Part shown: one piece after another, positions 1-22,559 of the stretch | Layout of the letters: the number at the start of each line of letters is the position of its first letter | Position numbering within the stretch: position 1 is the first letter of the stretch | Source: Roseomonas sp. HF4 | GTDB lineage: Bacteria > Pseudomonadota > Alphaproteobacteria > Acetobacterales > Acetobacteraceae | DNA length: 64,000 nucleotides | Reading direction: 5' to 3' | Assembly: GCF_005222755.1 (NCBI RefSeq) | Contig: NZ_STGD01000010.1 | Location: forward strand, 62,001-126,000 | Position numbers and translations under genes: made by a program | The notes under the pieces: model-generated | What the model saw: only the letters and a program-made list of their open reading frames with translations | The model's database searches: none | What the model was told of the DNA's origin: nothing

Positions 1-33
1 CAGTTGTGCGACACAGTCGGCGGGCTGAGCCAG

Positions 34-1809
34 ATGTCGGGGCTTTTGCGATGGATCGGGCGGTTCTTCAGGTCCGATGAGCCTTCGGCTCCCAGGGCGC
101 CGCAACAGCCTGAGTTGGCGAACTCGCGCGGAAGACAACCTAATTCGTCTACGACCAAGGATTCGCCGGGGGGGCACCCAGCGCCGACACCCCAGATCGC
201 TCCCCAAACTGTATTCCCTCGATCGCCCGTCGCTGAGGCCCGGCATGCTCGGCCGGCGGGCAGTAGCGGCAGCGTTCATCCGGGGATACCGAAGGCAGCG
301 ACGACTGCCGGCGGCGCAAATGCAAAGCGTCCACAGGCGGCGGGACCGTCCACGCCCTCGCTCAGGGGCCAGGCGATCCCGGCCAGCGCTATGGCTCCGC
401 CGCGTCCACCGAGCGATCGCGAGAAGGAAGCTGAGGCGCGCAGGCTCGCCGCGAAGATCGAGGCATTACCAGCGGAGATCGAGCAGCGCGCGCGCGAGCT
501 AGCCTCGGCATGCCGCGCGACTTCTGATGATGTTGTCGAACTCAACAAGCGCCTCGCAAATGGTGCGACCCCTGTCTCGCCAGCGGCTTCCACCCGGCGT
601 GGGATCGAGATCGTCTTGGGCGTGGACTTCGGTACCAGCAGCACGAAGATCGCCGCGCGCTTGCCCTACGAGGCGGGCTCACCCGTTTACGCTGTCCCTG
701 TGCCGCCCTTCGCACAGGCGGAGGAACACCCCTATCTTTGGGCATCGCGGCTTTGGCTCGCGTCTGATGGTCCGTTCTCTCTTTCGCCCCTGCCGGGCGC
801 TGCTGTTTCTTGCGCCTTGAAGGCAGGCTTGATGTCGAACCCGCCTGCCCCGGTCATGGGGACCGTGGCGGCACGGGCGAACGCAGAAGAAGCGGCCTGC
901 GCGTTCCTAGCGCTACAGGTCAGGCAAGCGCGGGGCTGGCTGGCGACCGAACGGGCCATGCTTATGCAGCGGGGCCGAATCACTTGGTCTTACAATTTCG
1001 GCTTTCCCGCCGCCTCACTGAACAATGGTGGTCTCCGCAATCGCTACCAGCGGTGTATCGCCGCCGCACTCTCGCTGGCCGACCAACCCGTAGCTGTAAC
1101 TCTCGCCGCTACGCGTGCAGCTTTGGCTGCGGTGGTGGGTTCTGAGACAGAGCAGCTTGAGCGCGCGCAAGCAGCGCTTGTCCCCGAGATCGCGGCGGCT
1201 GTGTCCGGCTTCGCCAACTCCACCATGCTGGATGACGGGCTTTACGCCATCGTCGACGTAGGGGGCGGCACGGTGGACTGCTGCACCTTCAACCTTTTCA
1301 AGGGACGCGACGGTGCGGCGCGCTGCCCCATCTTCGCGGCGGAGGTGGCAATGCTCGGGGCCGAGGTCTGGCAAGGTTGTGCGGACGATCCGACGCTGGC
1401 GAACTATTTCCGCTGGGATCTCGACCGCCGGCAACGCAGTGTGATCTGGGGAACCAAGCGGAACCGAGACCCGAAGAGCGAACGGTGGGTGCAGGGTCTG
1501 CCTGTATTCTTTGTGGGCGGCGGCATCCGGTCGGCTGTGCATCAGGCCAGCACTGGCAGCCTCGACGCCTGGCTGCGGCGTCACAGCCAGGACGGCGGCG
1601 GCGTCCGCCTGATGCGGCTGCCGCCTCCGGAAAATCTTGATCATGCGCTGTGCAACGCCACAGAGGTGCATCGCCTGGCCGTAGCGGTCGGCTTGAGCCT
1701 GCCAGCGGTAGACATGCCTGAGGTGGCGCTACCAGACGAAATCGAGGACGTCGAGCGACGCCGGCGGCGAGACGACGACGGGCGGTTTGTTGGCAAGGAG
1801 CAGGCCTGA
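34..1809 (+). CDS. Hsp70/actin-fold ATPase-like protein, island gene
   Basis: Predicted nucleotide-binding protein of the actin/Hsp70 superfamily; its cellular role is unknown. The first ~130 residues are Pro/Ala/Gln-rich and look disordered, and ~135-185 is a charged helical stretch that could be a coiled coil. From ~190 the ATPase signatures appear in order: phosphate-1 VDFGTSSTK (~197), phosphate-2 VDVGGGTVD (~407) and an adenosine-type GGGIRS (~493). Only about 100 residues follow, so the DnaK substrate-binding domain is absent. ATG 34 gives the natural-looking start MSGLLRW, but the frame is open to the window edge (TTG at 4), so the true start may lie further upstream. It precedes the restriction-like operon by 213 bp on the same strand, which suggests a regulatory or chaperone-like partner. 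That link is inference from position. Confidence 0.7.
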   Translation: MSGLLRWIGRFFRSDEPSAPRAPQQPELANSRGRQPNSSTTKDSPGGHPAPTPQIAPQTVFPRSPVAEARHARPAGSSGSVHPGIPKAATTAGGANAKRPQAAGPSTPSLRGQAIPASAMAPPRPPSDREKEAEARRLAAKIEALPAEIEQRARELASACRATSDDVVELNKRLANGATPVSPAASTRRGIEIVLGVDFGTSSTKIAARLPYEAGSPVYAVPVPPFAQAEEHPYLWASRLWLASDGPFSLSPLPGAAVSCALKAGLMSNPPAPVMGTVAARANAEEAACAFLALQVRQARGWLATERAMLMQRGRITWSYNFGFPAASLNNGGLRNRYQRCIAAALSLADQPVAVTLAATRAALAAVVGSETEQLERAQAALVPEIAAAVSGFANSTMLDDGLYAIVDVGGGTVDCCTFNLFKGRDGAARCPIFAAEVAMLGAEVWQGCADDPTLANYFRWDLDRRQRSVIWGTKRNRDPKSERWVQGLPVFFVGGGIRSAVHQASTGSLDAWLRRHSQDGGGVRLMRLPPPENLDHALCNATEVHRLAVAVGLSLPAVDMPEVALPDEIEDVERRRRRDDDGRFVGKEQA

Positions 1810-2022
1810 CGTGGAGGCGGCCCCGATCAGCCAACAGCCGGAAGCCCCACCCTGCGGGGGTTGATTGAGCCATTTCCGGTGGACGTGGTCCCACGAGCCC
1901 GAAGGCAAGCGGCTCTGTTGATTACGCGCCGCTAAATTCGCCACTAAGTTGCTCGCCATGCTTGATCGAACCACTGGTTCCGGGAAAGATGTACTACAAG
2001 CAACCTAGGGGCCGCGCGGGGC

Positions 2023-5000
2023 ATGGATTCGGAGTTCTTCAGCCGCCCAATCCTCAATTCGCCCTATGCGCCTCCGGCACGTCACTGGGAACTCGACTCG
2101 GATGGGCAACCAACCTCCCGGATCGTCGAGACCCGCCGACGGTCGGACCTGATCACACCGGTTCCGAAGCCAAAGCGTAGGAAGGGCAGCAAGGGCAAAG
2201 ACCAGTCGCAATTTCTATTCGAAGACGCCGAAGGTCTTTCCTCCGCGACGCAGGAGTATAACCCGACCCCGATCATCAACGAGGTCCGCGGCTACGTCGA
2301 AACCTGGCGGAACTTGCCGAACCCCGACCAGTGGGGCGTCACCCCAGAGACCGCGCGCCTGCTCCAGCACTGGCGTCACCACCAGTTCCAGGGTGTACGC
2401 CCCTTCTTCTGCCAGGTTGAGGCGGTCGAGACGGCGATCTGGCTTGCCGAGGTCGCGTCGAAGCCGAACTCCCGATACGGCAAGTTCCTTGACCACCTGA
2501 AGCGCGCCAACGCGCAGGCCAACCCCGAACTGATGCGCATCGCGCTGAAGCTCGCGACGGGGGCGGGCAAAACCACCGTCATGGCCATGCTCATCGCGTG
2601 GCAGACGGTCAACGCGGTCCGCCAGCCGAACAGCAAGACCTTCTCGCGCGGCTTCCTGATCGTCGCGCCGGGCATCACCATCCGGGATCGCCTGCGCGTC
2701 CTGCAGCCCAACGATCCCGACAGCTACTTCCGGGAACGCGAGATCGTCCCGCAGGACATGCTTGGCGACATCGCACGCGCCAAAATCGTCATCACCAACT
2801 ACCACGCCTTCAAGCTGCGCGAGCGCATCGACGTCGCAAAGGGCACGCGCTCGGCGCTGGAAGGCTGGCGCGAGGAGAAGCTCCAGACGCTCGAAACCGA
2901 AGGGCAGATGCTCCAACGCGTGATGCCCGACCTCATGGGCTTCAAGAACATCGTCGTGCTGAACGACGAAGCGCACCACTGCTACCGAGAGCGCGTGTCG
3001 GACGAAGATGACGATCTGAAGGGCGACGAGAAGGAAGAGGCGAAAGAGAACAACGAGGCCGCGCGCCTGTGGATCAGCGGCCTGGAAGCCGTCAAGCGGA
3101 AGCTCGGCCTCGCCAATGTCTACGACCTCTCCGCGACACCCTTCTTCCTGCGCGGCTCCGGCTATGCCGAAGGCACGCTGTTCCCGTGGACGATGTCGGA
3201 CTTCTCGCTGATGGACGCGATCGAATGCGGCATCGTGAAGCTGCCGCGCGTGCCCGTCTCTTCGAATGTGAATGACGGCACCATGCCGGTGTTCCGGAAT
3301 CTCTGGGACCACATCGGCAAGGCGATGCCGAAGAAGGGCCGCGGCACCGGCCAGGCCGCCGATCCGCAGAAGCTGCCAACCTACCTCATCACGGCGCTGC
3401 AGGCGCTCTACGGCCATTACAAGCAGACCTACGATCTTTGGCAGGAGAAGGGCATCCGGATCCCGCCCGTGTTCATCATCGTCTGCAACAACACGGCGAC
3501 GTCGGAGCTGATCTACCGCTACATCTCCGGCTACGAGCTAAGCGATGCCGAGGGCGGCGCGAGCTTCCAGCAGGGTGCGCTCGAGCTGTTCCGCAACTAC
3601 GACGAGTATGGGAATCGCCTCGCCCGACCCAACACCATCCTCGTGGATAGCGCGCAGCTCGAATCCGGCGAAGCGCTGGACAAGGACTTCCGCGCCATGG
3701 CCGCGGATGAGATCGAGCGATTCCGCAAGGAGATGGTCGAGCGCAGCGGTGACATCCGCGCCGGTGAGACGATCGACGACGCCACCCTGCTGCGCGAGGT
3801 CATGAACACCGTCGGCAAGCCTGGCCGCCTGGGCGAGCAGGTCCGCTGCGTGGTGTCCGTCTCCATGCTGACGGAAGGGTGGGACGCGAACACCGTCACG
3901 CACATCCTCGGTGTGCGCGCCTTCGGCACGCAGCTTCTGTGCGAGCAGGTTGTCGGCCGCGCCCTTCGGCGCCAGTCCTACGAGCTGAATGACCAGGACC
4001 TGTTCAACGTCGAATACGCCGACATCCTCGGCATTCCCTTCGACTTCACCGCGAAGCCGGTCGTGGCGCCCCCGGCTCCGCCACGGGAGACGGTGCGCGT
4101 CCATGCCGTGCGACCGGACCGTGATGCGCTGGAGATCACCTTCCCTCGGGTCGAGGGCTACCGCGTCGAACTGCCCGAGCAGCGCCTGGAGGCACAGTTC
4201 AAGCCCGACCATGTGCTGGAGCTGACGCCGGAACTGGTCGGCGCTACCCGCACGCGCAACCAGGGCATCATCGGAGAAGCCGCGGACCTCACGCTCGACC
4301 ATCTGGACGAGGTGCGGGACTCCACGGTGCTGTTCCACCTGACGCGGCACCTGCTCTACCGCACCTACCGCGAGACGGGCGAGGAGCCGAAGCTGCATCT
4401 CTTCGGGCAGATGAAGCGCATCGTCCGGCAATGGATCGATGGCGGCTACCTTCGCTGCATCGGTGGTACGTTCCCCGCGCAGCTCCTCTACATGGAGCTG
4501 GCGGAGATGGCGGCCAACAAGATCAAGGACGCCATCACCGAGTCCCTCGTCGGCGAGAAGCCGGTGCTGGCGATCCTGGACCCCTACAACCCCACTGGCT
4601 CGACCCGCTTCGTGAACTTCACCACCTCCAAGGCGACGCGGTGGGAAGCACGCCCCGACCGCAGCCACATCAACTGGGTCGTCTGCGACAGCGATTGGGA
4701 AGCCGAGTTCTGCCGCGTGGCCGAGAACCACCCGCGCGTCCTGGCCTATGCGAAGAACCAGGGCCTCGGCTTCGAGGTGCCGTACCTGCTCGGCACGCAG
4801 TCCCGCCACTACCGCCCGGACTTCATCCTGCGCGTGGATGACGGGCGCGAGGACCCGCTGAACCTGATCGTCGAGGTGAAGGGGTATCGCGGCGAGGATG
4901 CGAAGGAAAAGGCGAACACGATGCGCGCCTTCTGGGTGCCGGGCGTCAACAACCTCGGCAGCCATGGCCGCTGGGCGTTCGCCGAGTTCACCGCGGTCTA

Positions 5001-5064
5001 TGAGATGGAGGACGAGTTCGCCTCGCTGCTCGCCGCCTTCACGGCCGAATCGGTGCTGGTCTGA
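2023..5064 (+). CDS. Type III restriction-like DEAH helicase-nuclease (Res, BPTD_3080-type)
   Basis: Predicted ATP-dependent DNA translocase/endonuclease, the restriction partner of the methyltransferase at 5948-8884. The N-terminus (FFSRPILNSPYAPPARHWEL) is typical of BPTD_3080-family restriction proteins. Superfamily 2 helicase motifs are intact: Walker A GAGKT (~180), DEAH (~315), SAT (~371) and the arginine-finger motif QVVGRALRR (~642). The C-terminus carries a PD-(D/E)XK nuclease signature, RPDFILRV then LIVEVKGYRG (~932-955). The 1013-residue length suits the family. ATG 2023 is chosen because the conserved N-terminus starts there, although no strong ribosome-binding site is visible. 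The DinD-like gene follows after 37 bp. It should act in the cytoplasm on unmodified DNA. Activity is inferred from intact motifs. Confidence 0.88.
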   Translation: MDSEFFSRPILNSPYAPPARHWELDSDGQPTSRIVETRRRSDLITPVPKPKRRKGSKGKDQSQFLFEDAEGLSSATQEYNPTPIINEVRGYVETWRNLPNPDQWGVTPETARLLQHWRHHQFQGVRPFFCQVEAVETAIWLAEVASKPNSRYGKFLDHLKRANAQANPELMRIALKLATGAGKTTVMAMLIAWQTVNAVRQPNSKTFSRGFLIVAPGITIRDRLRVLQPNDPDSYFREREIVPQDMLGDIARAKIVITNYHAFKLRERIDVAKGTRSALEGWREEKLQTLETEGQMLQRVMPDLMGFKNIVVLNDEAHHCYRERVSDEDDDLKGDEKEEAKENNEAARLWISGLEAVKRKLGLANVYDLSATPFFLRGSGYAEGTLFPWTMSDFSLMDAIECGIVKLPRVPVSSNVNDGTMPVFRNLWDHIGKAMPKKGRGTGQAADPQKLPTYLITALQALYGHYKQTYDLWQEKGIRIPPVFIIVCNNTATSELIYRYISGYELSDAEGGASFQQGALELFRNYDEYGNRLARPNTILVDSAQLESGEALDKDFRAMAADEIERFRKEMVERSGDIRAGETIDDATLLREVMNTVGKPGRLGEQVRCVVSVSMLTEGWDANTVTHILGVRAFGTQLLCEQVVGRALRRQSYELNDQDLFNVEYADILGIPFDFTAKPVVAPPAPPRETVRVHAVRPDRDALEITFPRVEGYRVELPEQRLEAQFKPDHVLELTPELVGATRTRNQGIIGEAADLTLDHLDEVRDSTVLFHLTRHLLYRTYRETGEEPKLHLFGQMKRIVRQWIDGGYLRCIGGTFPAQLLYMELAEMAANKIKDAITESLVGEKPVLAILDPYNPTGSTRFVNFTTSKATRWEARPDRSHINWVVCDSDWEAEFCRVAENHPRVLAYAKNQGLGFEVPYLLGTQSRHYRPDFILRVDDGREDPLNLIVEVKGYRGEDAKEKANTMRAFWVPGVNNLGSHGRWAFAEFTAVYEMEDEFASLLAAFTAESVLV

Positions 5065-5100
5065 TACCCTGAACGACTTTCCTGCCCCCGGAGATTACCT

Positions 5101-5943
5101 TTGGACCGCCAAGTCATCCTGCAGCTGACTGAAACATTCGAAGGCCATGCGCAGCAGACCGACTCCGGCGTGGAGTATTGGCTGGCACGGGACCTCCAGG
5201 TGCTGCTCGGCTACGCGAACTGGGTCAATTTCCAGAACGTCCTGGGCAAGGCGCGGACGGCCTGTGAGGTCTCGGAGCACGACCCGGCGGACCATTTTGC
5301 TGAGGTCAGCAAAATGGTCGAACTCGGGTCCGGCGCGCAGCGCGAGATCGACGACGTCATGCTCACCCGCTTCGCCTGCTACTTGGTGGCGCAGAATGGC
5401 GACCCGAGCAAACCGGAAATCGCCTTCGCGCAATCCTACTTCGCGATCCAGACGCGCCGCGCCGAACTGATCGAGCAGCGGATCCTGGAAGCCGAACGCC
5501 TGACAGCGCGCCGCAAGCTGACGAGCACCGAGAAGGACCTGTCCCGCGTGATCTATGAGCAGACCGGCGGCAATCAGGATTTCGCCCTGATCCGCAGCAA
5601 GGGCGACCAGGCGCTGTTCGGCCGGTCTACCCAGGCGATGAAGGCGCAATGGAAGGTGCCGGACAGCCGGCCGCTGGCGGATTTCGCGCCCACCATCATC
5701 CTGAAGGCGAAGGACTTCGCCACCGAGATCACCATCTTCAACGCCCGCGCCCATGGCATGGCGAGCGAAGCGCGGATCGCGGCCGAACACACGACCAACA
5801 ATCAGGCTGTGCGCAACACCCTGCTGGGTCGCGGCATTCGCCCCGAGGCGCTTCCGCCCGCAGAGGACATCAGGAAGGTCGAGCGGCGCCTCGCCTCTGA
5901 TGAGCGAAAGACGCAAAGCAAGCCCAAGCGGCTGGACGACTGA
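5101..5943 (+). CDS. dinD: DinD-like protein (DNA-damage-inducible protein D family)
   Basis: Homologue of E. coli DinD, an SOS-induced protein reported to act on RecA filaments. Family hallmarks are visible: a BRO/antirepressor-like N-terminus (YWLARDLQVLLGYANW), the DHFAEVSKMV segment, RFACYLVAQNGDPSKPEIA (~85-105) and SYFAIQTRRAEL (~110-125). The 280-residue length matches the family. The start is TTG 5101, preceded by a weak CCGGAGA; it gives MDRQVILQLTETFEG. It sits 37 bp after Res and 5 bp before the methyltransferase, inside the same operon. Members of this family are often found next to restriction-modification genes. A role in sensing DNA damage or modulating recombination during restriction is plausible but not shown by the sequence. 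No LexA-type operator is apparent. Confidence 0.85.
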   Translation: MDRQVILQLTETFEGHAQQTDSGVEYWLARDLQVLLGYANWVNFQNVLGKARTACEVSEHDPADHFAEVSKMVELGSGAQREIDDVMLTRFACYLVAQNGDPSKPEIAFAQSYFAIQTRRAELIEQRILEAERLTARRKLTSTEKDLSRVIYEQTGGNQDFALIRSKGDQALFGRSTQAMKAQWKVPDSRPLADFAPTIILKAKDFATEITIFNARAHGMASEARIAAEHTTNNQAVRNTLLGRGIRPEALPPAEDIRKVERRLASDERKTQSKPKRLDD

Positions 5944-5947
5944 CCCG

Positions 5948-8884
5948 ATGGCCAAGCAGCCCCTGGAAATCACATCGCTCAAGCACGACGCCACGCGCCG
6001 CAACATCCCGACCGCGGAGCTGGAGACGGTGATGCGGGCGGAGGACAAGTCGCCCATCCGGCTCGCCTATGAACGGCGGAACCGCGACCTCGACCCGCAG
6101 CTCGTCTGGCGCGGCAAGGATGAGCAGGACTGGTCGGACCTGATCGTGCAGGCGCCGCCGCTCTACATCCAGGAGAAGGTGCACCCGCAGGCGCTGATCG
6201 AGGACATCAAGCGGCGCAGCAAGGCGAAGCCGGCGGCGGCGGCGATGCCGGACCTCTTCGCTGACTTCAACGGACTGAAGGACGCGGAGGCCGCGACCGA
6301 GTTCTATCAGCACGACCAGCACTGGTCGAACCGCATGATCTTGGGCGACAGCCTGAGCGTGATGGCATCGCTGGCGGAACGCGAGGGGCTGCGCGGGCAG
6401 GTGCAGTGCATCTATTTCGACCCGCCCTACGGCATCAAGTTCAACAGCAATTTCCAATGGAGCACCACCAGCCGCGACGTGAAGGACGGCGACCGCAGCC
6501 ATGTGACGCGGGAGCCGGAGCAGGTGCGTGCCTTCCGCGACACCTGGCGCGACGGGATCCACTCCTATCTGACCTATCTGCGGGACCGGCTGACGGTGGC
6601 GCGCGACCTGTTGCACGAGAGCGGCAGCATCTTCGTGCAGATTGGCGAAGAAAATCTGCACCTCATTCGATCAATTCTTGACGAAATATTCGGCCCCGCA
6701 AATTTTATCACCAATCTCATTATAAGAAAAACAGGGTCACACAGTGATGATTTTGTGGGCTCATCGGTCGATTATGTTGTCTGGTATTCGAAAGATCGTC
6801 GAAAGGCAAAATTTCGCCAGCTGCATGCACAGCAGATTTTGCCACCAATAGACGAAGATTACTATGTAAATATTCTTCTGCCCGACGGAATTCGACGCCG
6901 CATGACCAAAGAGGAGCGTCTTCGGCAGGTTAGTTTGCCCAAGGGAAGTGTAATTTTCCGATATGGACCTATCACTGGGCAAGGGCCATCGAAGAATGAC
7001 GAAACGATTCATTTCCGGGGTGTAGCATACCCCCCGAAAGAAAAGCGGCATTGGTCCACCAGCACTTTGGGTATGTATCGTGTAATTCGTGCGGACAGAA
7101 TGCTTCAAATCGGGAGCGATATCGCATGGGATCTGCGATGGGACGAAGTTCCGAAGAAACTGAACAATATATGGGAAGATACGCAGTCTGGTGGCTTTGG
7201 TGATCAGAAGCGCTACGTTGTAGAGACTACGCCTGTAGTCATTGAACGCTGCGTTCTGATGGTGACTGATCCAGGCGATCTCGTTTTGGACCCCACCTGC
7301 GGCTCGGGGACCACCGCCTATGTCGCCGAGCAGTGGGGCCGCCGCTGGATCACCATCGACACCTCGCGCGTTTCGCTGGCGCTCGCCCGCTCGCGCCTCA
7401 TGGGCGCGCGCTACCCCTACTACCTCCTGGCCGACAGTCCCGAGGGCCAGCGCAAGGAAGCCGAGGTCACCCGCACCGCGCCGAAGACCGCGCCCACCGC
7501 TGGCCGGCTGCGCCTCGGCTTTGTCTATGAGCGCGTGCCCCACATCACGCTGAAATCCATCGCCAGCAACGCCGAGATCGACGTGGTCTGGGAGCAGGCG
7601 CAGACGGTGCTGGAGCCGCTTCGCGCCGCGCTCAATGCCGCGCTCGGAAAGTCCTGGGAAGAATGGCAGATCCCGCGCGAGGCCGGGGACCCCTGGCACG
7701 CCGAGGCGGCCAAGACCTGGGAAGAACTTCGCCTCGTCCAGGACAAGCCCACCGAGGCCGCTGTGCTGCTACAGAAGCTCAACAAGCAGCTCGGCCGCAG
7801 CTACACCCTTGCCGCCCTGCCGGAGGCGCCGCGCGATCCCTGGTCGGCCGAGCCCACGCGCCTGCATGCCGAATGGTGGAAGGCGCGCATCGCCCGGCAG
7901 AAGGAGATCGACGCCTCGATCGCCGCCAAGGCCGATGTCGAATACCTCTACGACAAGCCCTATGAGGACCGCGGGCGCATCCGCGTCGCGGGCCCCTTCA
8001 CGGTGGAGAGCCTCTCGCCCCACCGCGCGCTGACCGTGGACTGGAACGACGAGCTGGTGGACCCGCAGCGCCCCAAGGGCGTGAAGGGCATGGCGGAGGG
8101 GCAGGCGGCGATCAAGCGCGACTTCGCCGCCATGATTATCGAGAACCTGCGTAGCGCCGGCGTGCAGCAGGCCGACAAGGCGGACCATATCCGCTTCACC
8201 AGCCTGGTCGGCTGGCCCGGCGCACTGATCTGCGCCGAAGGGCGATACATGGAAGGCGAGCAGGAACGCCGCGCGGGCATCCTGATCGGCCCCGAATTCG
8301 GCACGCTGACCCGCCCGGACCTGGTGGCAGCAGCGCGCGAGGCAGCCGATGCCGGCTTCGATGCACTGATCGCCTGCGCCTTTGCCTATGACGCCCACTC
8401 GGCCGAGTTCGACCGGCTCGGGCGGGTGCGCGTGCTGCGCGCCCGCATGAACCCGGACCTGCACATGGCGCAGGATCTGAAGGCGACGGGCAAGGGGAAC
8501 CTCTTCGTCATCTTCGGCGAGCCCGACATCAAGATCGAGCCGCAGAAGGACGGGCAGCTGCGGGTGCGCATCAAGGGCGTGGACGTGTTCAAGCCGCAGA
8601 CCGGCGAGGTCGAAAGCGAGGGCACGGACAAGATCGCCCTCTGGATGATCGACACCGACTACAACGAGGAAAGCTTCTTCGTCCGCCACGCCTACTTCCT
8701 CGGAGCGAACGACCCTTACAAGGCGCTGAAGACCACGCTGAAGGCCGAGGTCGACGAGGCGGCGTGGAGCAGCCTGAACAGCGACGTCTCCTACCCCTTC
8801 CCGAAGCCGGCGAAAGGGCGGATCGCGGTGAAGGTGATCAATCACCTCGGGGATGAGGTGATGAAGGTGTTCGCGGTGGCCTGA
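5948..8884 (+). CDS. Site-specific adenine DNA methyltransferase (Mod-like, beta class)
   Basis: Predicted N6-adenine methyltransferase giving the host modification for the adjacent Res. Motif order is that of beta-class enzymes: catalytic DPPY (~158) first, a target recognition domain (~236-440), then the SAM-binding LDPTCGSGT (~449). At 978 residues it is much longer than classical type III Mod (~650); the extra C-terminal ~500 residues include RIRVAGPFTVESLSPHR. ATG 5948 lies 5 bp after the DinD stop. The frame is open further upstream, but that stretch overlaps dinD and is not used here. Bases ~6655-7265 are strikingly AT-rich (6721-6780 is 40% GC; 6541-6600 is 67% and 7321-7380 is 70%). 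This points to a swapped specificity domain inside an otherwise GC-rich gene. Confidence 0.9.
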   Translation: MAKQPLEITSLKHDATRRNIPTAELETVMRAEDKSPIRLAYERRNRDLDPQLVWRGKDEQDWSDLIVQAPPLYIQEKVHPQALIEDIKRRSKAKPAAAAMPDLFADFNGLKDAEAATEFYQHDQHWSNRMILGDSLSVMASLAEREGLRGQVQCIYFDPPYGIKFNSNFQWSTTSRDVKDGDRSHVTREPEQVRAFRDTWRDGIHSYLTYLRDRLTVARDLLHESGSIFVQIGEENLHLIRSILDEIFGPANFITNLIIRKTGSHSDDFVGSSVDYVVWYSKDRRKAKFRQLHAQQILPPIDEDYYVNILLPDGIRRRMTKEERLRQVSLPKGSVIFRYGPITGQGPSKNDETIHFRGVAYPPKEKRHWSTSTLGMYRVIRADRMLQIGSDIAWDLRWDEVPKKLNNIWEDTQSGGFGDQKRYVVETTPVVIERCVLMVTDPGDLVLDPTCGSGTTAYVAEQWGRRWITIDTSRVSLALARSRLMGARYPYYLLADSPEGQRKEAEVTRTAPKTAPTAGRLRLGFVYERVPHITLKSIASNAEIDVVWEQAQTVLEPLRAALNAALGKSWEEWQIPREAGDPWHAEAAKTWEELRLVQDKPTEAAVLLQKLNKQLGRSYTLAALPEAPRDPWSAEPTRLHAEWWKARIARQKEIDASIAAKADVEYLYDKPYEDRGRIRVAGPFTVESLSPHRALTVDWNDELVDPQRPKGVKGMAEGQAAIKRDFAAMIIENLRSAGVQQADKADHIRFTSLVGWPGALICAEGRYMEGEQERRAGILIGPEFGTLTRPDLVAAAREAADAGFDALIACAFAYDAHSAEFDRLGRVRVLRARMNPDLHMAQDLKATGKGNLFVIFGEPDIKIEPQKDGQLRVRIKGVDVFKPQTGEVESEGTDKIALWMIDTDYNEESFFVRHAYFLGANDPYKALKTTLKAEVDEAAWSSLNSDVSYPFPKPAKGRIAVKVINHLGDEVMKVFAVA

Positions 8885-9960
8885 TGGCGGTCCCCTACGA
8901 CCTCACCTGCTGGTACCTGAATGACCGCCGTATCATGGAACTGGTGGGGCCAGGGGCCCTCGACTGCGGCGGTGGTGGGTCACCGTCTCGCGACCCTCAC
9001 CTGGACCGGCTTCGGCGCCTGCGGGACTTGAAGGACGCCGCCATCGACTGGATGCAGGCCGCCAAGCCCTCACCCCTCGGCGTGCTTCTCACGACGGGTG
9101 CCGCCGACGCCGGAAGGGCTTTCACCCATCTCGGGCTCTTTGGCTTCAAGGGCCTGAACAAGTACGACGCGGCTCGGCAAAGTGGACGGTCCGCACCGGT
9201 CCCAGTCGCCTATTCCAAGCTCGATCCTTGGATGCCGAATGGGAAGGTCACCTGCGACTACTATCCAGAACACCTGACGTCGGTGTCAGCATGGGGTGAG
9301 CTATCAGGGCAGAAGCGAAAGTTCTTTCTGGGCGTGATTCAGGACGTTGCGAACGGAGGCATTCGGGCGATCCCGTACCTGTTTGCCGATGTGGTTGAGA
9401 ACCAACTTCGCGGGCAGATCTTGAGCTCCGGCGCCTGGTCGAGCCATCTCGAAATCCACATCGATCAGATCGACTCATTTGCGCGTGTTTCCGAGGTTCC
9501 TCTCGAACGCACGCGGGCCGCTCTCGACAGTCTGAGGGCCGTTCCGGAGCGGCAGATCAAGGAAGCGATCGCCGATATTCTGGGTGAGCCTAACGTCCCG
9601 AAAGACTGGGGCGGCGAGTCGTCAGACCTTTTCAGCAGCAGGGTTACGATCGACGGGAATCGGGCATCCACCGCCTTCCTGCTGAAGGGGCCCGCGAATT
9701 TCAGGCCGATGACGATGGCTGAGCTCGGAAGCAATGGCGATCAAATCCAGAGGCTCTTCACAGAGCCGGCCGAGCTCCTTGTCCTTCAGCATTGCCACGA
9801 GGTCACTTCGGCCGTTCGCACGATGATGCGGGCGTTCGCACAGCAGATGGGCAATCCAAGGCGTTTCGCGATTATCGATGGCTACGACACGATCCGGCTC
9901 CTCACGGCATACGGGAAGTGCGGCTTTGGTCCCGCGGCCTCAGGGCATGATGGAGCCTGA
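8884..9960 (+). CDS. Unrecognised protein, restriction operon
   Basis: I do not recognise this 358-residue protein. It has no signal peptide or membrane segment, so it is probably cytoplasmic. The N-terminal half has a Gly-rich turn (ALDCGGGGSPS) and a helical RLRRLRDLKDAAIDWM. The C-terminal ~130 residues (DWGGESSDLFSSRVTIDG, AFLLKGPA, LLVLQHCHEV, RFAIIDGYDT) alternate hydrophobic strands with Asp/Lys/His. This could be a divergent nuclease-type fold, but the acidic residue of a normal ExK motif is missing, so I only raise the possibility. ATG 8884 overlaps the methyltransferase stop (TGATG), and the helicase gene follows after 3 bp. Tight coupling implies it works with the methyltransferase, Res and helicase. 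Confidence 0.8.
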   Translation: MAVPYDLTCWYLNDRRIMELVGPGALDCGGGGSPSRDPHLDRLRRLRDLKDAAIDWMQAAKPSPLGVLLTTGAADAGRAFTHLGLFGFKGLNKYDAARQSGRSAPVPVAYSKLDPWMPNGKVTCDYYPEHLTSVSAWGELSGQKRKFFLGVIQDVANGGIRAIPYLFADVVENQLRGQILSSGAWSSHLEIHIDQIDSFARVSEVPLERTRAALDSLRAVPERQIKEAIADILGEPNVPKDWGGESSDLFSSRVTIDGNRASTAFLLKGPANFRPMTMAELGSNGDQIQRLFTEPAELLVLQHCHEVTSAVRTMMRAFAQQMGNPRRFAIIDGYDTIRLLTAYGKCGFGPAASGHDGA

Positions 9961-9963
9961 TCG

Positions 9964-12027
9964 ATGGAATTCCGCATCGCCGACAGCTTCACCGCCAGTC
10001 TCGCGAAACTCACCGCGGCCGAGCAGAAGGCGGTGAAGACCACCGCGTTCGATCTGCAGATGGATGCCTCGGCGCCGGGGCTATCGTTCCATAAGGTGGA
10101 TCGGGCGAAGGATCCGAATTTCTGGTCGGTTCGCGTCAATGCCGACATCCGCCTGATCGTGCATCGCACCGGGTCGAGCCTGCTGCTGGCCTATGTGGAT
10201 CATCACGACAAAGCCTATCGCTGGGCTGAGCGGCGAAAGATCGAACGCCACCCGACGACCGGCGCCATGCAGCTGGTGGAGATCCGGGAGCGAGTCGAGG
10301 AGTTGCCCCCCGTCACTCCCGCGACGGCAGCCGCGTCCGTCGGTCCGAAGCTCTTCGCCTCGCTGCGCAAGCTCGAGCTCATGGCCATGGGCGTCCCCGA
10401 GGAGTGGGTCGAGGACGTCCGTGCGCTCACCGAGGACACGCTGTTCAACGTGCTGGGCCACCTGCCGCAGGAAGCACAGGAAGCCCTGTTGCGGTTGGCG
10501 GTGGGCGAGAAGCCACCGGCGCCGCAGCCCGCCCCTGTCAGCGCCGACCCATTTGCGCACCCGGACGCACAGCGTCGGTTCCGGGTGCTGCATGACGTGG
10601 AGGAGTTGCGGCGGGCCTTCGACTACCCGTGGGATCGCTGGGCCGTGTTCCTGCATCCCTCACAGCGGGAGGTGGTGGAGCGGCGCTACGCAGGGCCGGC
10701 CCGCGTGACCGGCTCTGCCGGAACGGGCAAGACGATCGTCGCGCTGCATCGCGCCGCCTATCTGGCCCGAAGCAACCCTAAGGCCCGTGTCCTGCTTGCC
10801 ACCTTTTCCAAGCCACTGGCACGCGCGTTGGCGGGCCGCTTGGAAAGCCTTGTCGGCGGAGAGCCGGCAGTGGCGGCGCGCATCGCGGTCCAGCCGATGA
10901 CCGGCGCAGCCTACGATCTCTACACTGAGGCGTTCGGGCAGCCCAACATCGCTTCCGCCGCCATCGTCCAGGGGTTGCTCCGCAAGGCGAGCCAGGAGTC
11001 CGGCGTCGCCGCCCCACAGCCGTTCCTGATCGCCGAGTGGAATGAGGTCGTGGACGCGCAGCAGACGCGGTCGTGGGAGGCGTATCGCGATGCGCCGCGC
11101 CTGGGGCGGAAGACGCGCCTCGGCGAAAAACAACGTCAGGCGCTCTGGAACGTATTTGCTGCCGTCCAGTCGGGGCTCTCGGCGCAGAAGCTGGTGACCT
11201 GGGCCGAGGTCTTCGCGCGCCTGGCAGAGCGGGCCCGGGCCGGCAAAGCGCCTGCTTACGACCATGTCGTGGTCGATGAGGCCCAGGACCTGGGCATGCC
11301 CGAGGCGCGGTTCTTGGCGGCGATGGCGGGTGACAGGCCGGACGGCTTGTTCTTCACCGGCGACCTTGGGCAGCGGATCTTCCAGCAACCTTTCTCGTGG
11401 AAGGCCCTCGGGATCGATGTGCGCGGGCGATCCATCAGCCTCAGGATCAACTACCGGACCTCTCACCAGATCAGAACCCAGGCCGACCGGCTGCTGCCCG
11501 GCAGCGTTTCTGACGTTGATGGGCTGAAGGAGGGGCGGCGCGGGACCGTGTCGCTCTTCGATGGGCCCGAGCCGGCCGTCCGGCTGTTCCCGGATGACGT
11601 TGCAGAGAGCAAGGCCGTCGGCGCTTGGGTCGCGGACAGGCTGCGCGACGGGTGCGCGCCCGAGGAAATTGGACTTCTTGTGCGCTCGGCCGCCGAGCTT
11701 CCAAGGGCCCGAGCGGCGGCGAAGGCCGCCGGTGCCAAGGCGACGGAGTTCGACGAGAAGGTCGAGACGGTACCCGGCGCGGTCTGCATCAGCCCAATGC
11801 ACCTGGCGAAGGGCCTCGAGTTCAGAGCCGTCGCGGTCATGGCTTGCGACGATGAGGTGCTGCCTTTGCAGGAACGCGTTGAGGCCGTCACCGACGAGGG
11901 GGACCTGCAGGAAGTCTACGAGACGGAACGGCATCTGCTGTACGTCGCATGTACCCGGGCGCGGGATCATCTTTGGGTCTCGGGTGTGCAGCCCGAGTCG
12001 GAATTCCTGCGCGACATGGCGGATTGA
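9964..12027 (+). CDS. RelE/ParE-like domain fused to UvrD-type helicase
   Basis: Predicted superfamily 1 DNA helicase with a toxin-like N-terminus. Residues 1-~85 resemble RelE/ParE toxins (SFTASLAKLTAAEQKAV, FWSVRVNADIRLIVHRTG, LLLAYVDHHDKAYRWAERRK). The helicase starts at ~235: Walker A GSAGTGKT (~250), DEAQD (~437), motif IV-like LRINYRTSHQ (~495) and YVACTRARDHLWVSG (~660). The family as a whole processes DNA ends or displaces strands. Here the RelE-like part may be a nucleic-acid-binding module or an embedded toxin. No separate antitoxin gene is seen, so self-inhibition would be needed if it is toxic. ATG 9964 is 3 bp after the preceding stop. It is the last gene of the operon; the tRNA-Ser gene lies 327 bp downstream. 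Confidence 0.88.
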   Translation: MEFRIADSFTASLAKLTAAEQKAVKTTAFDLQMDASAPGLSFHKVDRAKDPNFWSVRVNADIRLIVHRTGSSLLLAYVDHHDKAYRWAERRKIERHPTTGAMQLVEIRERVEELPPVTPATAAASVGPKLFASLRKLELMAMGVPEEWVEDVRALTEDTLFNVLGHLPQEAQEALLRLAVGEKPPAPQPAPVSADPFAHPDAQRRFRVLHDVEELRRAFDYPWDRWAVFLHPSQREVVERRYAGPARVTGSAGTGKTIVALHRAAYLARSNPKARVLLATFSKPLARALAGRLESLVGGEPAVAARIAVQPMTGAAYDLYTEAFGQPNIASAAIVQGLLRKASQESGVAAPQPFLIAEWNEVVDAQQTRSWEAYRDAPRLGRKTRLGEKQRQALWNVFAAVQSGLSAQKLVTWAEVFARLAERARAGKAPAYDHVVVDEAQDLGMPEARFLAAMAGDRPDGLFFTGDLGQRIFQQPFSWKALGIDVRGRSISLRINYRTSHQIRTQADRLLPGSVSDVDGLKEGRRGTVSLFDGPEPAVRLFPDDVAESKAVGAWVADRLRDGCAPEEIGLLVRSAAELPRARAAAKAAGAKATEFDEKVETVPGAVCISPMHLAKGLEFRAVAVMACDDEVLPLQERVEAVTDEGDLQEVYETERHLLYVACTRARDHLWVSGVQPESEFLRDMAD

Positions 12028-12354
12028 TGGGGGGCGTGGCAGCGCGAAGTGGCCGAGGATCTGTTCTGCTTCGTGAGGCCCGTACCTCTGGTTCGCGCGC
12101 GAAGTACGGATTTCGGGCAAGTGGGGTTCGAACCGCAGCAGGTGCCGACCGCGCTGAAACCGGCCTTTGACCTAGATTTTTGGGGTCCGTACTAAATCGG
12201 CCAAGTCAGCAGGTCCGGAGAGAAATGGCCTCCGGAGAGCGATTTTCGGCCGTCTCCGCGCCGGGCCAGTCAACAGGTCTGGCCCAAAAACCCCAGGAAA
12301 CCTGCCACTCAGCGGGGCGTCCGATCAGGCGGAGAGCATGGCTCGTATGGGAAC
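12028..12354. other. Gene-free right edge of the island
   Basis: No convincing gene is present between the helicase stop and the tRNA-Ser 3' end. There is no integrase, resolvase or transposase fragment. The stretch holds a tRNA-like 21-mer at 12114-12134 (separate entry) and GGTCC/GGCC-rich short repeats. It appears to be the boundary between the acquired island and the core chromosome. Confidence 0.5.
12114..12134. repeat. tRNA-3'-end-like fragment, possible attachment-site remnant
   Basis: The segment cgggcaagtggggttcgaacc matches bases 12358-12379 of the tRNA-Ser gene (cggacagggtgggattcgaac then c) at about 18 of 22 aligned positions, in the same orientation. It covers the acceptor 3' strand and T-arm, the part normally duplicated when an island integrates into a tRNA gene. 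It could be a degraded att site. The short T-arm palindrome GGTTCGAACC also makes a chance match possible. Confidence 0.3.
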
Positions 12355-12445
12355 TGGCGGACAGGGTGGGATTCGAACCCACGATACGCTTTTGACGTAT
12401 ACGCACTTTCCAGGCGCGCGCCTTCGACCGCTCGGCCACCTGTCC
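12355..12445 (-). tRNA. tRNA-Ser (anticodon GGA)
   Basis: On the minus strand the sequence folds as a class II tRNA of 91 nt including an encoded CCA. The acceptor strands GGACAGG and CCTGTCC pair perfectly, with discriminator G. The D-arm contains GCCGAGCGGTCGAAGGC, the anticodon loop CTGGAAA gives GGA (12409-12411), a long variable arm follows as serine tRNAs require, and the T-arm is GTGGGTTCGAATCCCAC. It reads UCC/UCU serine codons. Its 3' end faces the restriction island, the classic geometry for integration at a tRNA gene. Confidence 0.97.
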
Positions 12446-12459
12446 ACGGGCGGCGGACC

Positions 12460-12489
12460 ATAGTCACGGCCGGACCCGGACGCAAGCAA
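12460..12489 (-). promoter_or_regulatory. Candidate sigma70 promoter for tRNA-Ser
   Basis: On the minus strand TTGCTT (12489-12484) and GACTAT (12465-12460) are separated by 18 bp, and the -10 ends 15 bp before the tRNA 5' end. Position and spacing fit a tRNA promoter; the sequence match is moderate. Confidence 0.4.
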
Positions 12490-12530
12490 GCGGCGCCACC
12501 CGATCTGCCCCACCGTTGCCATCCCGCGCC

Positions 12531-14234
12531 ATGGGGCCGAGTATGCCCCGCATGGCAGCAGAACCGCCGGCAACGGAGGCGGCGCGAAGGGCGCGGGCGC
12601 CCCGGCCGGGACCTCGCGGCAGGACCGTCGCCCCTGCCGCACGCGACGCCGTCGCCGCCACCCTCGGCGACCTGCCGCTGCGGCGCGACCTGCTGATCGA
12701 GCACCTCCACGCGCTGCAGGACCGCCACGGCGCCCTGCGGCCGGATCACCTCGTGGCACTTGCCGACCTGCTCGGCCTCGCGCCCGTCGAGGCCTTCGAG
12801 ACTGCCACCTTCTACCATCATTTCGACGCGCTCCCGGCGGACGGGCCGCCGCCGCCGCCCGTGACCATCCGTGTCTGCGAAGGCCTGCCCTGCGTCCTGG
12901 CCGGCGGCGAGGCACTGTTGGCGACACTGCGCGCCACCCCGCCCGGCGCCGCGCGCATCCTGGCCGCGCCCTGCATGGGCGGCTGCGACACGGCGCCCTG
13001 CTGCGCCGCCGCCAGCGGCCCGGCGCAGGCGCATCTTCCGTCTGCCACGTCCGCGCGCGTCGTCGCCGCCTTCGCGCAGGGTGTCCCGCTGCCGCCCTCC
13101 GCGCCGCCGCGACGGCCGCCGCCCTTCCACCGGCTCGCCGCGCTGCGGGAAGGTCACCTGAACCGGGACGCGATGCTCGCTGCCCTCGACGCGTCTGGCC
13201 TCCGCGGCATGGGCGGCGCCGGCTTCCCTGTCGCGCGGAAGTGGCGCGCCGTGATGGCCGCACCCGCCCCGCGCCACCTGGTGGTCAATGCCGACGAGGG
13301 CGAGCCCGGCACCTTCAAGGACCGCTGGATCCTGGACCGCGAGCCCTGGCGTTTCCTCGAAGGGATGCTCCTCGCGGCCGAGGCGATCGACGCCGAGGCC
13401 TGCTGGATCTACCTCCGCGACGAATACCCCGAGGCCCGGCGCCTGCTGGTCCAGGCGCTCGCCGCGCTCGACGCCGACGGCGTCGCGCGCCGGCCAATCC
13501 ACCTCCGCCGCGGCGCCGGCGCCTATGTCTGCGGGGAGGAGACGGCGCTGCTGGAAAGCCTGGAGGGCCGCCGCGGCTATCCACGCCACAAGCCCCCCTT
13601 CCCGGGGGAGCGCGGTCTCTTCGGCCGCCCCACGCTGATCCACAACGTCGAGACGCTGTGGTGGCTCCCGGAGGTGCTGGCCGCGCCCGAAGCCTATGCC
13701 GCCGCGGGCCGCAACGGTCAGGCGGGCGAGCGCCTGTTCAGCCTCTCGGGCCGCGTGCGGCGGCCGGGCGTCTACCGCGCGCCGATCGGCATCACAGCAC
13801 GCGACCTGATCGAGGACTTCGGCGGCGGCATGCCGGGCGACCATCGCCTCGCCGCCTACCTGCCGGGCGGTGCCTCCGGCGGCATCCTGCCCGCGTCCAT
13901 GGCCGACCTGCCGCTCGGCTTCGGCACGCTGGAGACCCACGGCTGCTTTGTCGGATCCGGTGCCGTGATCGTGCTGTCCGACCAGGACGACCTGGCCGAG
14001 GCGGCGCGCAACCTGCTGCGCTTCTTCCGCGACGAATCCTGCGGCCAGTGCACGCCGTGCCGCGTCGGCACGCAGAAGGCGGTGCACCTGCTCGATGCGC
14101 CGCGCTGGGACCGCGCGCTGCTGGCGGAGCTTTCGCAGGCCATGGCCGACGGCTCGATCTGCGGCCTTGGCCAGGCGGCGATGAACCCCGTGCTTTCCCT
14201 GCTGCGCCACTTCCCGGAGGAGGCCGCGCCATGA
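12531..14234 (+). CDS. fdsB: NAD-dependent formate dehydrogenase, fused gamma-beta subunit (NuoE-NuoF-like)
   Basis: Diaphorase subunit that passes electrons from formate oxidation to NAD+. The N-terminal part is NuoE/FdsG-like: a [2Fe-2S] thioredoxin-like domain with CEGLPC (~114) and CMGGCDTAPCC (~147). The remainder is NuoF/FdsB-like: NADH-binding GLRGMGGAGFPVARKW (~223), FMN-binding NADEGEPGTFKDR (~253) and the C-terminal [4Fe-4S] motif ESCGQCTPCRVGT (~502). A fused beta subunit of about this size is known from the two-subunit FDH1 of Methylobacterium. The start is uncertain: in-frame ATGs occur at 12531, 12543 and 12552, and the first ~40 residues are low complexity. The stop overlaps the alpha-subunit start (ATGA), so the two are co-translated. 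Confidence 0.88.
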   Translation: MGPSMPRMAAEPPATEAARRARAPRPGPRGRTVAPAARDAVAATLGDLPLRRDLLIEHLHALQDRHGALRPDHLVALADLLGLAPVEAFETATFYHHFDALPADGPPPPPVTIRVCEGLPCVLAGGEALLATLRATPPGAARILAAPCMGGCDTAPCCAAASGPAQAHLPSATSARVVAAFAQGVPLPPSAPPRRPPPFHRLAALREGHLNRDAMLAALDASGLRGMGGAGFPVARKWRAVMAAPAPRHLVVNADEGEPGTFKDRWILDREPWRFLEGMLLAAEAIDAEACWIYLRDEYPEARRLLVQALAALDADGVARRPIHLRRGAGAYVCGEETALLESLEGRRGYPRHKPPFPGERGLFGRPTLIHNVETLWWLPEVLAAPEAYAAAGRNGQAGERLFSLSGRVRRPGVYRAPIGITARDLIEDFGGGMPGDHRLAAYLPGGASGGILPASMADLPLGFGTLETHGCFVGSGAVIVLSDQDDLAEAARNLLRFFRDESCGQCTPCRVGTQKAVHLLDAPRWDRALLAELSQAMADGSICGLGQAAMNPVLSLLRHFPEEAAP

Positions 14235-16966: not shown

Positions 16967-17034
16967 ACAGCCGAGGCTTGCCGGCGGGGCCGCGCCGTCC
17001 CTAGGCTTCAACCCACAGAACGGGAGACACCGAC

Positions 17035-18582: not shown

Positions 18583-18586
18583 GGGT

Positions 18587-18714
18587 GGGGGGGGAAGGGA
18601 ACTTCTCCCCCCAAAACCCCCCTCAACCTTCTTTGTCACTTGGCGCCCGACCTCCCGGGACCTGCGCCAAAGGACAAAGAAGGGAGGGGGCTCGGGGGAG
18701 GTTCCCCTCCCCCG
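18587..18714 (-). repeat. Structured intergenic repeat, family 1, copy A (inverted)
   Basis: About 128 bp filling the gap between two convergent genes. Each end is a hairpin: 18587-18612 (11-bp stem with one G-T pair, loop GGAA) and 18693-18714 (9-bp perfect stem, loop TTCC, which is GGAA on the other strand). The core is an inverted pair, 18629-18646 and 18664-18681, matching 16 of 18 positions. It is the reverse complement of the copies at 33366-33495 and 47376-47505. It probably ends transcription from both sides. Confidence 0.85.
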
Positions 18715-18735
18715 ACCTGCGGCATCCGCCCGGCC

Positions 18736-19697
18736 TCAGGCCGCCCGCTCGACCAGGTGGCATTCTGCGAGGCCCACGGCATCGCGAAGCGTGGGCGGCG
18801 CCGCGACCGAGCACTTCGCCACCGCCACCGGGCAGCGCGGGTGGAAGCGGCAGCCCGGCGGGATGTTCGCCGGGTCCGGCATCGCATCCCCCAGCCCGAC
18901 ATCCGGCACGCCGAGCCCCGGCTCCGGCGTCAGCACCGAAGCGAGCAGCGCCTTCGTGTACGGATGGCGCGGCGTGGCGAACAGCGTCTCGCTCTCGGCG
19001 CGCTCGACGATGCGGCCGAGATACATCACCGCCACCTCGCTCGCGATGTGCTCGACCACCGCCAGGTTGTGGCTGATGAACAGGTAGGTCAGGCCGAGAT
19101 CGCGGCGCAGCTCCGCCAGCAGGTTCAGGATCTGCGCCTGCACCGACACGTCGAGCGCGCTGGTGGGTTCGTCGCAGACCACGATGCGCGGGCGCAGCAC
19201 GAGGGCGCGCGCGATGGCCACGCGCTGGCGCTGCCCGCCCGAGAGCTGCGCCGGGAAGCGCACGCCCTGGTCCTTCGACAGGCCGACGCGCTCCAGCGCC
19301 TCGGCCACGCGGCGGTCGACATCCGCGCCGGCGATGTTGCCCTGCGCGATCAGCGGCATGGCGACGATGTCGCGCACGCGTCGCTTCGGGTTCAGCGAAG
19401 CGAAGGGGTCCTGGAACACCGGCTGGATGAGCCGCGCACGGGCACGCCGGTCCATGCCCGACAGCCGCTGCCCGTCCACCAGCACGTCGCCGGCGGTGGG
19501 CGGCAGCAGGCCGAGGATCAGCCGCGCCAGCGTCGATTTCCCGCAGCCGCTTTCCCCCACCACGCCGAGCACGCTGCCCGCAGGCACGGCGAAGGAGACG
19601 TCGTCCACCGCGATCACGCGCTTGGGCGGGGCGAAAAGCCCCTGGCGGACGCGGAACTCGCGCTTCAGGCCGCGCACCTCGATCGCCGCGGTCCCGC

Positions 19698-19701
<4 letters not shown>
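18736..19701 (-). CDS. Peptide-type ABC transporter ATP-binding protein (DppF/OppF-like)
   Basis: Second cytoplasmic ATPase of a DppBCDF-type importer. Walker A GESGCGKS (~51), ABC signature LSGGQRQRVAIARAL (~159) and Walker B IVVCDEPTSALD (~180) are intact. The C-terminal oligopeptide-transporter domain contains RCPVAVAKC and related cysteines, as in DppF-type proteins. The length of 321 is normal. The start overlaps the stop of the DppD-like gene. It is the last gene of the four-gene minus-strand operon starting at 22455. Confidence 0.92.
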
Positions 19702-20671
<970 letters not shown>

Positions 20672-20675
<4 letters not shown>

Positions 20676-22455: not shown

Positions 22456-22464
22456 GTCGTGGGA

Positions 22465-22494
22465 AGCCTAGGCAGGCATGGTGCGCCGCGGCAA
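22465..22494 (-). promoter_or_regulatory. Candidate promoter of the dpp-like operon
   Basis: On the minus strand TTGCCG (22494-22489) and TAGGCT (22470-22465) are 18 bp apart, 10 bp before the dppB-like ATG and just after the terminator of the upstream gene. It fits a housekeeping promoter with a very short leader. The match is moderate. Confidence 0.3.
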
Positions 22495-22506
22495 GGCCCG
22501 GACGCG

Positions 22507-22535: not shown

Positions 22536-22559
22536 ATCCGGTCTGCGCCGAAGCGCCGC

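Follow-up and report, generated by a model that had tools for sequence, protein, structure and literature searches.

At the start of the 64,000-nucleotide stretch of Roseomonas sp. HF4 analysed here (the window; contig NZ_STGD01000010.1, positions 62,001 to 126,000) lie six open reading frames (ORFs), all on the + strand in the ORF list, which end beside a tRNA-Ser(GGA) gene. The second to sixth of these genes resemble a type III restriction-modification (RM) operon, built from a frame of three genes (the restriction subunit Res, a methyltransferase and a RelE-UvrD helicase) with further genes between them. We call the interval between Res and the methyltransferase bay 1, that between the methyltransferase and RelE-UvrD bay 2, and the 358-aa protein of the window U358; L-numbers denote compared loci or regions. 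The features are:

34-1809, + strand: Hsp70/actin-like ATPase gene, named from motifs (ATG at 34, frame open from the window start)
2023-5064, + strand: Res of the BPTD_3080 family, SF2 helicase with a C-terminal PD-ExK nuclease motif, frame gene 1
5101-5943, + strand: DinD (Bro-N domain, PADLOC candidate PDC-S13), bay 1 cargo
5948-8884, + strand: type III-like DNA methyltransferase (Mod), frame gene 2, with DPPY at residue 158 and DPTCGSG at 448
6662-7242, + strand: methyltransferase target-recognition region, which differs by exchange from that of the sister island L014 (from the gap in the DNA alignment and a drop in protein identity)
8884-9960, + strand: U358, bay 2 cargo, with an OB-like middle and a predicted PD-(D/E)XK nuclease domain (from models and structural matches)
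9484-9957, + strand: C-terminal nuclease-like domain of U358, residues 201-358
9964-12027, + strand: RelE-like domain (about residues 1-105) fused to a UvrD helicase, ArmD-like, frame gene 3
12091-12383, strand not assigned: stretch closing with the tRNA-Ser 3' end, with diverged copies in the genome
12355-12445, - strand: tRNA-Ser (GGA), the island boundary

The distances between successive ORFs are 213, 36, 4, -1 and 3 bp, so that the last five genes form one tight same-strand cluster beside the tRNA gene. The original prediction, made from the letters of the window, had six same-strand genes at a tRNA-Ser, the last five separated by 37, 5, -1 and 3 bp; the arrangement was confirmed, and the gaps agree within 1 bp. 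The window start cuts the island, and a SNF2 helicase gene lies directly upstream on the same strand, its end 58 bp from the ATG of the Hsp70-like gene.

Each of the three frame genes could be assigned by profile searches. Res matches the NCBIfam model NF046055, “BPTD_3080 family restriction endonuclease,” with 1355 bits (cut-off 800); in Pfam, PF04851 scores above its cut-off and the endonuclease domain PF19778 just below. PADLOC REase_III gives 25 bits, and a sequence search with Res against the PDB gave no useful match. The methyltransferase scores 1304 bits with PADLOC MTase_III, contains PF01555, and matches the Mod subunits 6k0w and 4zcf (EcoP15I) in the PDB. Together with NF008573 for DinD, these matches bear out the prediction that the three proteins belong to known families. 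For the last gene, the UvrD part is identified by PF00580/PF13361, whereas the sole Pfam match of the RelE part is HigB-like and sub-threshold (E 0.047); the RelE stretch is well conserved over 30 sequences, that of the window included. The RelE-UvrD fusion is thus as had been described, but it is not new, since it is the architecture of ArmD, as far as the accessible part of the preprint on the ARMADA systems goes (PMC12458937).

Motif conservation was examined across a census of 42 loci, made up of 35 of the 40 Res regions that were fetched together with the window, L014-L016, L087, L089 and L091; L140, L141, L182 and L183 (Res 31-32% identical) and L185 (no methyltransferase match) were left out. 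The GxGKT, DEAH, PD and ExK motifs of Res and the DPPY motif of Mod are kept in 42/42 loci. In UvrD, GTGKT is present in 30/30 sequences and DEAQD in 28-29/29, and the RelE residues R63, H67, H80, H81, D82 and Y85 are each found in 30/30.

The three genes are found together far beyond Roseomonas. Res above the family cut-off occurs in 22/385 genomes sampled from the class and 27/398 from the phylum, and RelE-UvrD relatives above 430 bits in 17/385 class genomes. Both are present in 12 of the 385, against 0.97 expected (hypergeometric P 2e-13, relatedness uncorrected). Among the remaining five genomes with RelE-UvrD, four have the gene at most 650 bases from a contig end on its upstream side; the fifth (G190), without a Res match, has a methyltransferase adjoining RelE-UvrD. 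A methyltransferase is near Res in 20/20 class regions and 19/20 phylum regions, within about 4 kb in these 39 of 40, and RelE-UvrD is present in 10/20 and 13/20, respectively; several Res regions stop at a contig edge (e.g., L130, L131, L136, L168). Loci with all three genes have Res, the methyltransferase and RelE-UvrD in this sequence on one strand; L132 and L133 are exceptions, with methyltransferase-Res and a convergent RelE-UvrD. The same association holds on plasmids: 10 of the 11 records with RelE-UvrD at about 50% identity or more also encode Res; in the eleventh, from Qipengyuania, RelE-UvrD adjoins other nuclease genes, and Res is absent within 10 kb of it. From these genome comparisons, the genes filed as Res, methyltransferase and RelE-UvrD helicase make up a recurrent frame. 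The prediction is borne out to the extent that part of the set recurs.

The intervals between the frame genes are, in contrast, variable. DinD is assigned with confidence (NF008573 367 bits, cut-off 242; PDC-S13 376 bits), and its search against PDB sequences gave no useful match; it occupies bay 1 in 3/42 loci, namely the window, L014 and L171, where a 73% identical protein has the same place. U358 is in bay 2 of four. The contents of the bays, by Pfam unless stated, are:

Bay 1, L128 and L131: HepT-like HEPN
Bay 1, L130 and L170: NYN
Bay 1, L137 and L138: GmrSD_N
Bay 1, L173: PIN
Bay 1, L124: DUF2971
Bay 1, L123: DUF4268, below cut-off; PADLOC PDC-S11, 312 bits
Bay 1, L179: PDDEXK_4 in a 4-kb insertion
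Bay 1, L167: Bro-N
Bay 1, L091: DUF3883, by annotation
Bay 2, window, L014, L015 and L016 (4/42 loci): U358
Bay 2, L172 and L138: HNH_2
Bay 2, L128: AAA and subtilase, two proteins
Bay 2, L123: SNF2
Bay 2, L167: AAA_16
Bay 2, L177: AAA_15 (OLD-like)
Bay 2, L170: HEC-07 by PADLOC, 621 bits; no Pfam match

In addition, L168 and L169 carry NYN labels that rest on similarity to L170, and the HicBA label of L125 rests on a reading of the sequence. The GmrSD-type protein of L137 has PDC-M55C as its best PADLOC match (106 bits), and HEC-05 at 78 bits. The bay-1 proteins of L015 and L016 have no Pfam match, and L087, L129, L139, L166 and L174 have nothing, or almost nothing, in either bay.

We mapped the bay-1 contents on a tree of Res (41 of the 42 loci, with 12/38 inner branches open). 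The 20 labels need 26 changes, where the minimum is 19 and shuffled labels need 31.4 on average and were never as low in 200 trials; DinD (3 rows) accounts for 2 changes and “empty” (8 rows) for 7. Cargo has therefore been exchanged, though close relatives share it. By their counts over the 42 loci, DinD and U358 are exchangeable cargo. These same observations could be read in a simpler way, as a plain type III-like RM system in which the bay genes are unrelated passengers, the bays being safe landing sites in an operon that is kept since loss of Mod kills. Bays that are empty in several loci and change so often would suit such passengers, as would toxin-type pairs (the PIN pair, for example), which can occupy bays as they would any toxin-antitoxin landing site; but the family-matched contents are mostly nucleases, toxin-type RNases, defence-type ATPases and catalogued defence candidates, and RelE-UvrD keeps one position and intact motifs. 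We regard the passenger explanation as improbable.

The sister island L014, in the metagenome-assembled genome Rhodospirillales bacterium Ga0074136, shows a further kind of exchange. It holds the same gene order, SNF2 and Hsp70-like genes included, and is 95.5% identical to the window over 7.8 kb and 93.3% over 5.2 kb; the DNA does not align between 6662 and 7242. This corresponds to residues about 240-430 of the methyltransferase, where identity falls to 30-40% per block; the bordering blocks are at 83% and 70%, and those before residue 210 and at 451-510 are at 97-100%. The exchanged stretch sits between the DPPY and DPTCGSG motifs, and over 34 loci it is the most variable of the first 570 residues. 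In type III Mod enzymes the target-recognition domain lies between motifs IV and I. Such an exchange is typical of a methyltransferase that is specific for a DNA sequence and is being selected for a change of target, and, judged from the alignments, is what would be expected of a sequence-specific system. Homology between the two islands stops 25 bp past the tRNA-Ser, which places both at tRNA-Ser(GGA) with different neighbours.

We therefore read genes 2 to 6 as a predicted type III-like RM operon, likely anti-phage, in which a recurrent frame carries cargo in two bays, and put the probability of this at roughly 70%: the frame recurs, its motifs are intact, the contents of the bays change, and the recognition domain of Mod has been exchanged. 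With the type III systems EcoP15I and EcoP1I it shares a Mod-like methyltransferase with a variable region between motifs IV and I, and a Res with SF2 helicase and PD-ExK motifs. It differs from them in that Res belongs to the BPTD_3080 family model and not to the canonical Res family, in the long extra C-terminus of Mod, in the two cargo bays and in the added RelE-UvrD.

Type III enzymes require two sites in inverse orientation, cleave 25-27 bp from one of them and methylate one strand. Known ones have a Mod2Res1 stoichiometry, according to the accessible part of a published account (PMC4005696). In the operon of the window, Mod would bind a specific site and there methylate the host DNA; together with Res it would use ATP to travel along phage DNA that is unmethylated, and cut it. 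The UvrD helicase would then likely unwind the cut ends, leading to degradation of the DNA, while the RelE domain would bind or cut phage mRNA or ribosomes. A second layer, against phages escaping the first, is the likely contribution of the bays. U358 would act in that layer as an MspJI-like nuclease, possibly for modified DNA. DinD is a LexA-regulated protein affecting RecA filaments, and could be a helper in the DNA-damage response, which is the least certain part of the scheme. We favour this layered arrangement because GmrSD proteins are found in bay 1 of two loci and because there is a precedent in TgvAB, a modification-dependent GmrSD-type system embedded in a type I system, as described in the available part of that study (PMC11411939). 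We infer phage defence by the operon from these sequence features.

A more ambitious version, for which we would argue only tentatively and consider doubtful, makes the frame a defence chassis that senses unmethylated DNA and switches on the effectors in its bays (DinD, U358, HEPN, NYN, PIN, GmrSD, HNH, OLD-like and others), with U358 founding a new nuclease family among them. An RM system would then serve as the sensor for effectors that can be interchanged. The likeness would be to CBASS and type III CRISPR, which use ancillary effectors.

Several observations weigh against the RM operon as we read it. Res gives 21 bits with the canonical type III model PRK15483 (cut-off 564), so that the prediction of something other than classical type III stands as regards the family of Res, whereas the motifs of Mod and Res are type III-like. 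The usual type III gene order is mod-res, and here it is res-mod. RelE-UvrD is missing in the class loci L122, L124, L125, L126 and L134 despite at least 3.7 kb of downstream sequence, and their genomes are not among the class RelE-UvrD matches; it is also missing in L169 and L184, and is therefore not strictly required. No Pfam match was obtained for 8 of the 20 bay-1 proteins sent to Pfam (those of L089, L127, L135, L172, L176 and L178, the first L179 ORF and the second L131 ORF), nor for 3 of the 10 bay-2 proteins other than U358 (L127, L170, L176). For U358 itself, the best structural Z of 8.0 is close to what the tool states as noise (7-8), and neither of the two U358 models had a Foldseek match with E below 0.001. 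MspJI-type enzymes have Q or E two residues before the catalytic lysine; U358 has a hydrophobic residue at that position. As regards the place of U358 in the operon, the complete frame or its last three genes were seen at only 4/72 genome loci of the U358 family (several of the contigs being too short to tell), and U358 was rejected as a restriction subunit on this count.

The case for a nuclease in U358 comes from its C-terminal domain, which was modelled as a PD-(D/E)XK nuclease with MspJI as the best structural match. A sequence search of the PDB detected no similarity, MspJI included, and the profile searches of PADLOC, Pfam and NCBIfam gave no family match, as anticipated for an orphan protein; Pfam searches with 32 family members returned scattered weak matches, each in 1-3 of the 32. 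Relatives of U358 were recognised in 1148 of 7127 candidates. In the domain alignment, which comprises the window and 31 of the 72 loci, E222, D248 and K268 are invariant in 32/32 sequences. MspJI has an SRA-like N-terminal domain; U358 differs from MspJI and AspBHI in its OB-like part, its altered catalytic residues and the lack of detectable sequence similarity.

The U358 family extends to other settings. In L051-L084, from archaea, candidate phyla and cyanobacteria, the C-terminal domain of U358 is preceded by an N-terminal stretch that is helix-turn-helix-like in several, and proteins of this type are possibly a new nuclease family. In actinobacteria, a set of genes surrounds a U358-like gene (L045 4128-10411, with related genes in L034, L040-L044 and L046-L049); at 11 loci it includes a protein of about 1030 aa in which one stretch resembles a P-loop, at 9 loci a protein kinase that matches the PD-T4-6/mad6 profiles, and at 5 loci a small protein. 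This set may represent a defence operon not yet described.

ARMADA type II is among the closest named systems. As far as the accessible text of the preprint goes, every one of its genes is needed and the ArmD substitution K266A abolishes protection (PMC12458937). The last gene in both is a RelE-like domain joined to a GajB-like UvrD helicase, by the same partial account, and both have a methyltransferase; a RapA/SNF2-type helicase is nearby in the Roseomonas island. An E. coli plasmid carries an operon of ARMADA-II-like layout, and its last helicase gene is a 32% identical relative of the RelE-UvrD in the window. Neither a YprA-like helicase (ArmC) nor a PglX-like methyltransferase (ArmB) was found among the six window proteins (Pfam, NCBIfam) or in SNF2 (Pfam), and ARMADA membership was rejected on the lack of these defining genes. 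On a Thermus plasmid (L211 4462-11995), a very long DEAD-box helicase gene is followed by a RelE-UvrD of 40% identity, with an N-6 methylase and type III-A CRISPR genes close by, an arrangement that is possibly ARMADA-like. DISARM was dismissed, in agreement with the prediction: SNF2 is DrmD-like, but neither DrmB nor DrmC is among the matches listed for the window proteins and SNF2. Gabija was likewise set aside, with a GajB-like match of 89 bits over part of RelE-UvrD and no GajA among the matches listed.

Embedding of defence genes in restriction operons has precedents. DarTG2 lies within a type I system, as the available part of the report has it (PMC12255303). The cargo families PDC-S13 (DinD), PDC-S11 and HEC-07 are the same as those embedded in Hma and type I systems, and the GmrSD-type protein with its HEC-05 match is shared as well; the host operon differs, since here a type III-like frame of the BPTD_3080 kind provides two defined bays. 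The parts accessible to us of the published work on embedded defence genes do not mention the frame. A preprint by Payne and colleagues is reportedly also a source on such embedding. Literature searches for BPTD_3080 returned no publication, and those on type III with UvrD and RelE, on DinD and on embedding returned none on this frame; coverage was partial, so that each is a weak absence. The prediction of a system without a name holds in that no named system with this frame was found in our searches, and falls short in that Res and the methyltransferase are type III-like and carry family names. Since the RelE-UvrD fusion and embedding are known and the frame was not found in the literature, we take the new parts to be the three-gene frame, its two bays and U358. 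If the operon is as we propose, genes now annotated as “BPTD_3080 family restriction endonuclease,” “site-specific DNA-methyltransferase” and “3'-5' exonuclease” would belong to one recurrent system. The two bays would be a place to find new antiviral effectors, U358 having come from there. Genes embedded in restriction operons may be passengers, or the host system may switch them on; the frame would also offer a direct test between the two.

The first gene of the window remains to be placed. Its motifs VDFGTSSTK, VDVGGGTVD and GGG we take to be Hsp70-type nucleotide-binding motifs. Their core positions are kept in 4/4 aligned sequences; no Hsp70 or actin-like family was matched in Pfam, and neither the protein nor its 4-sequence profile matched any PDB sequence, so that the name comes from motifs only. 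The upstream SNF2 helicase has DrmD as its best PADLOC profile (827 bits; DrmA helicase model 159 bits). Four relatives of the Hsp70-like protein were found in 72,556 plasmid records, and in 4/4 a SNF2 helicase is directly upstream on the same strand (2 by annotation, 2 by coordinates). Among class genomes the gene was detected in 2/385 at E 1e-8, only the window's own being strong and the second at 44 bits; it is in 0/40 fetched Res regions, nor is it in L015 or L016, and none of the plasmids that carry it has it adjacent to Res. Because the relatives adjoin SNF2 and not Res, the gene-by-gene comparison makes the SNF2-Hsp70-like pair likely a separate module of the same island, 213 bp ahead of the restriction operon, and a candidate two-gene defence module. 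A scan of 1700-2100, the Hsp70-like/Res junction, found no promoter or terminator.

The original prediction had all six genes as one unit, and a wider form would take in SNF2 as a single six- or seven-gene defence system with all parts acting together. The same strand, the close spacing and the identical order in L014 speak for it. In ARMADA type II, too, a RapA/SNF2 helicase goes together with a methyltransferase and a RelE-UvrD helicase, as far as the available part of its description goes. Furthermore, and counting against two separate modules, three of the four SNF2-Hsp70-like plasmids (Sphingobium CAP-1, S. fuliginis and Shinella PSBB067) also have a distant Res of 31-32% identity at 13-52 kb from the Hsp70-like gene. 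Yet L014 is no independent case, since it is 93-95% identical; two of those three plasmids share the region concerned; and the absence from Res regions and the 213-bp gap before Res point the other way. We consider full integration rather improbable, and a looser partnership between the pair and the operon may exist.

SNF2 (DrmD-like) and Hsp70-like pairs also lie in defence-rich regions of conjugative plasmids (L090 14268-19236 and L086 37047-41920), and on an Aminobacter plasmid a Hachiman HamA gene is some 4 kb from the pair. Hsp70-like proteins are associated with McrBC in the CoCoNuTs, according to the part of that work available to us (PMC11090510), and the accessible part of a BREX survey has no Hsp70, UvrD or DinD (PMC12839542). 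A literature search for DrmD with Hsp70 gave nothing relevant, and one for SNF2, Hsp70-like proteins and defence islands gave no publication on the Res-methyltransferase-RelE-UvrD frame; both had partial coverage and are weak absences.

The island may lie in a mobile region. Further upstream on the contig of the window, in L009 (1-16321, equal to C10:42001-58321), two genes were identified by searches:

L009 12490-13218: IrrE-like protein
L009 14969-16321: large serine recombinase

From its translations, L009 also has a run of - strand genes reading like phage- or plasmid-type replication genes. The upstream genes suggest an integrated element, and the operon might then be cargo of a prophage-like element and act less in defending the host than in competition among mobile elements. 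The serine recombinase, the genes read as phage- or plasmid-type, and Res relatives on 55 plasmid records are in keeping with this; the exact ends of an element were not found, however, either in the search for tRNA-end repeats or in the L014 alignment, and the proposal concerns the beneficiary, not the biochemistry. We think it quite unlikely, the least probable of the explanations considered.

At the tRNA end, the stretch of about 290 bp at 12091-12383 has copies, 83-92% identical, at five further sites in the genome (L002-L006), one of which (L003) adjoins a second tRNA-Ser (CGA), and is possibly an attachment-site relic. No tRNA-end copy that would serve as an exact upstream attachment repeat was present in three 20-kb stretches, the known copies being diverged. 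The GC content is 58-68% across 1-12000 against 69-77% across 12001-30000; past the tRNA, in this region of higher GC, the ORFs of 12516-16966 read as a formate dehydrogenase operon of ordinary chromosome.

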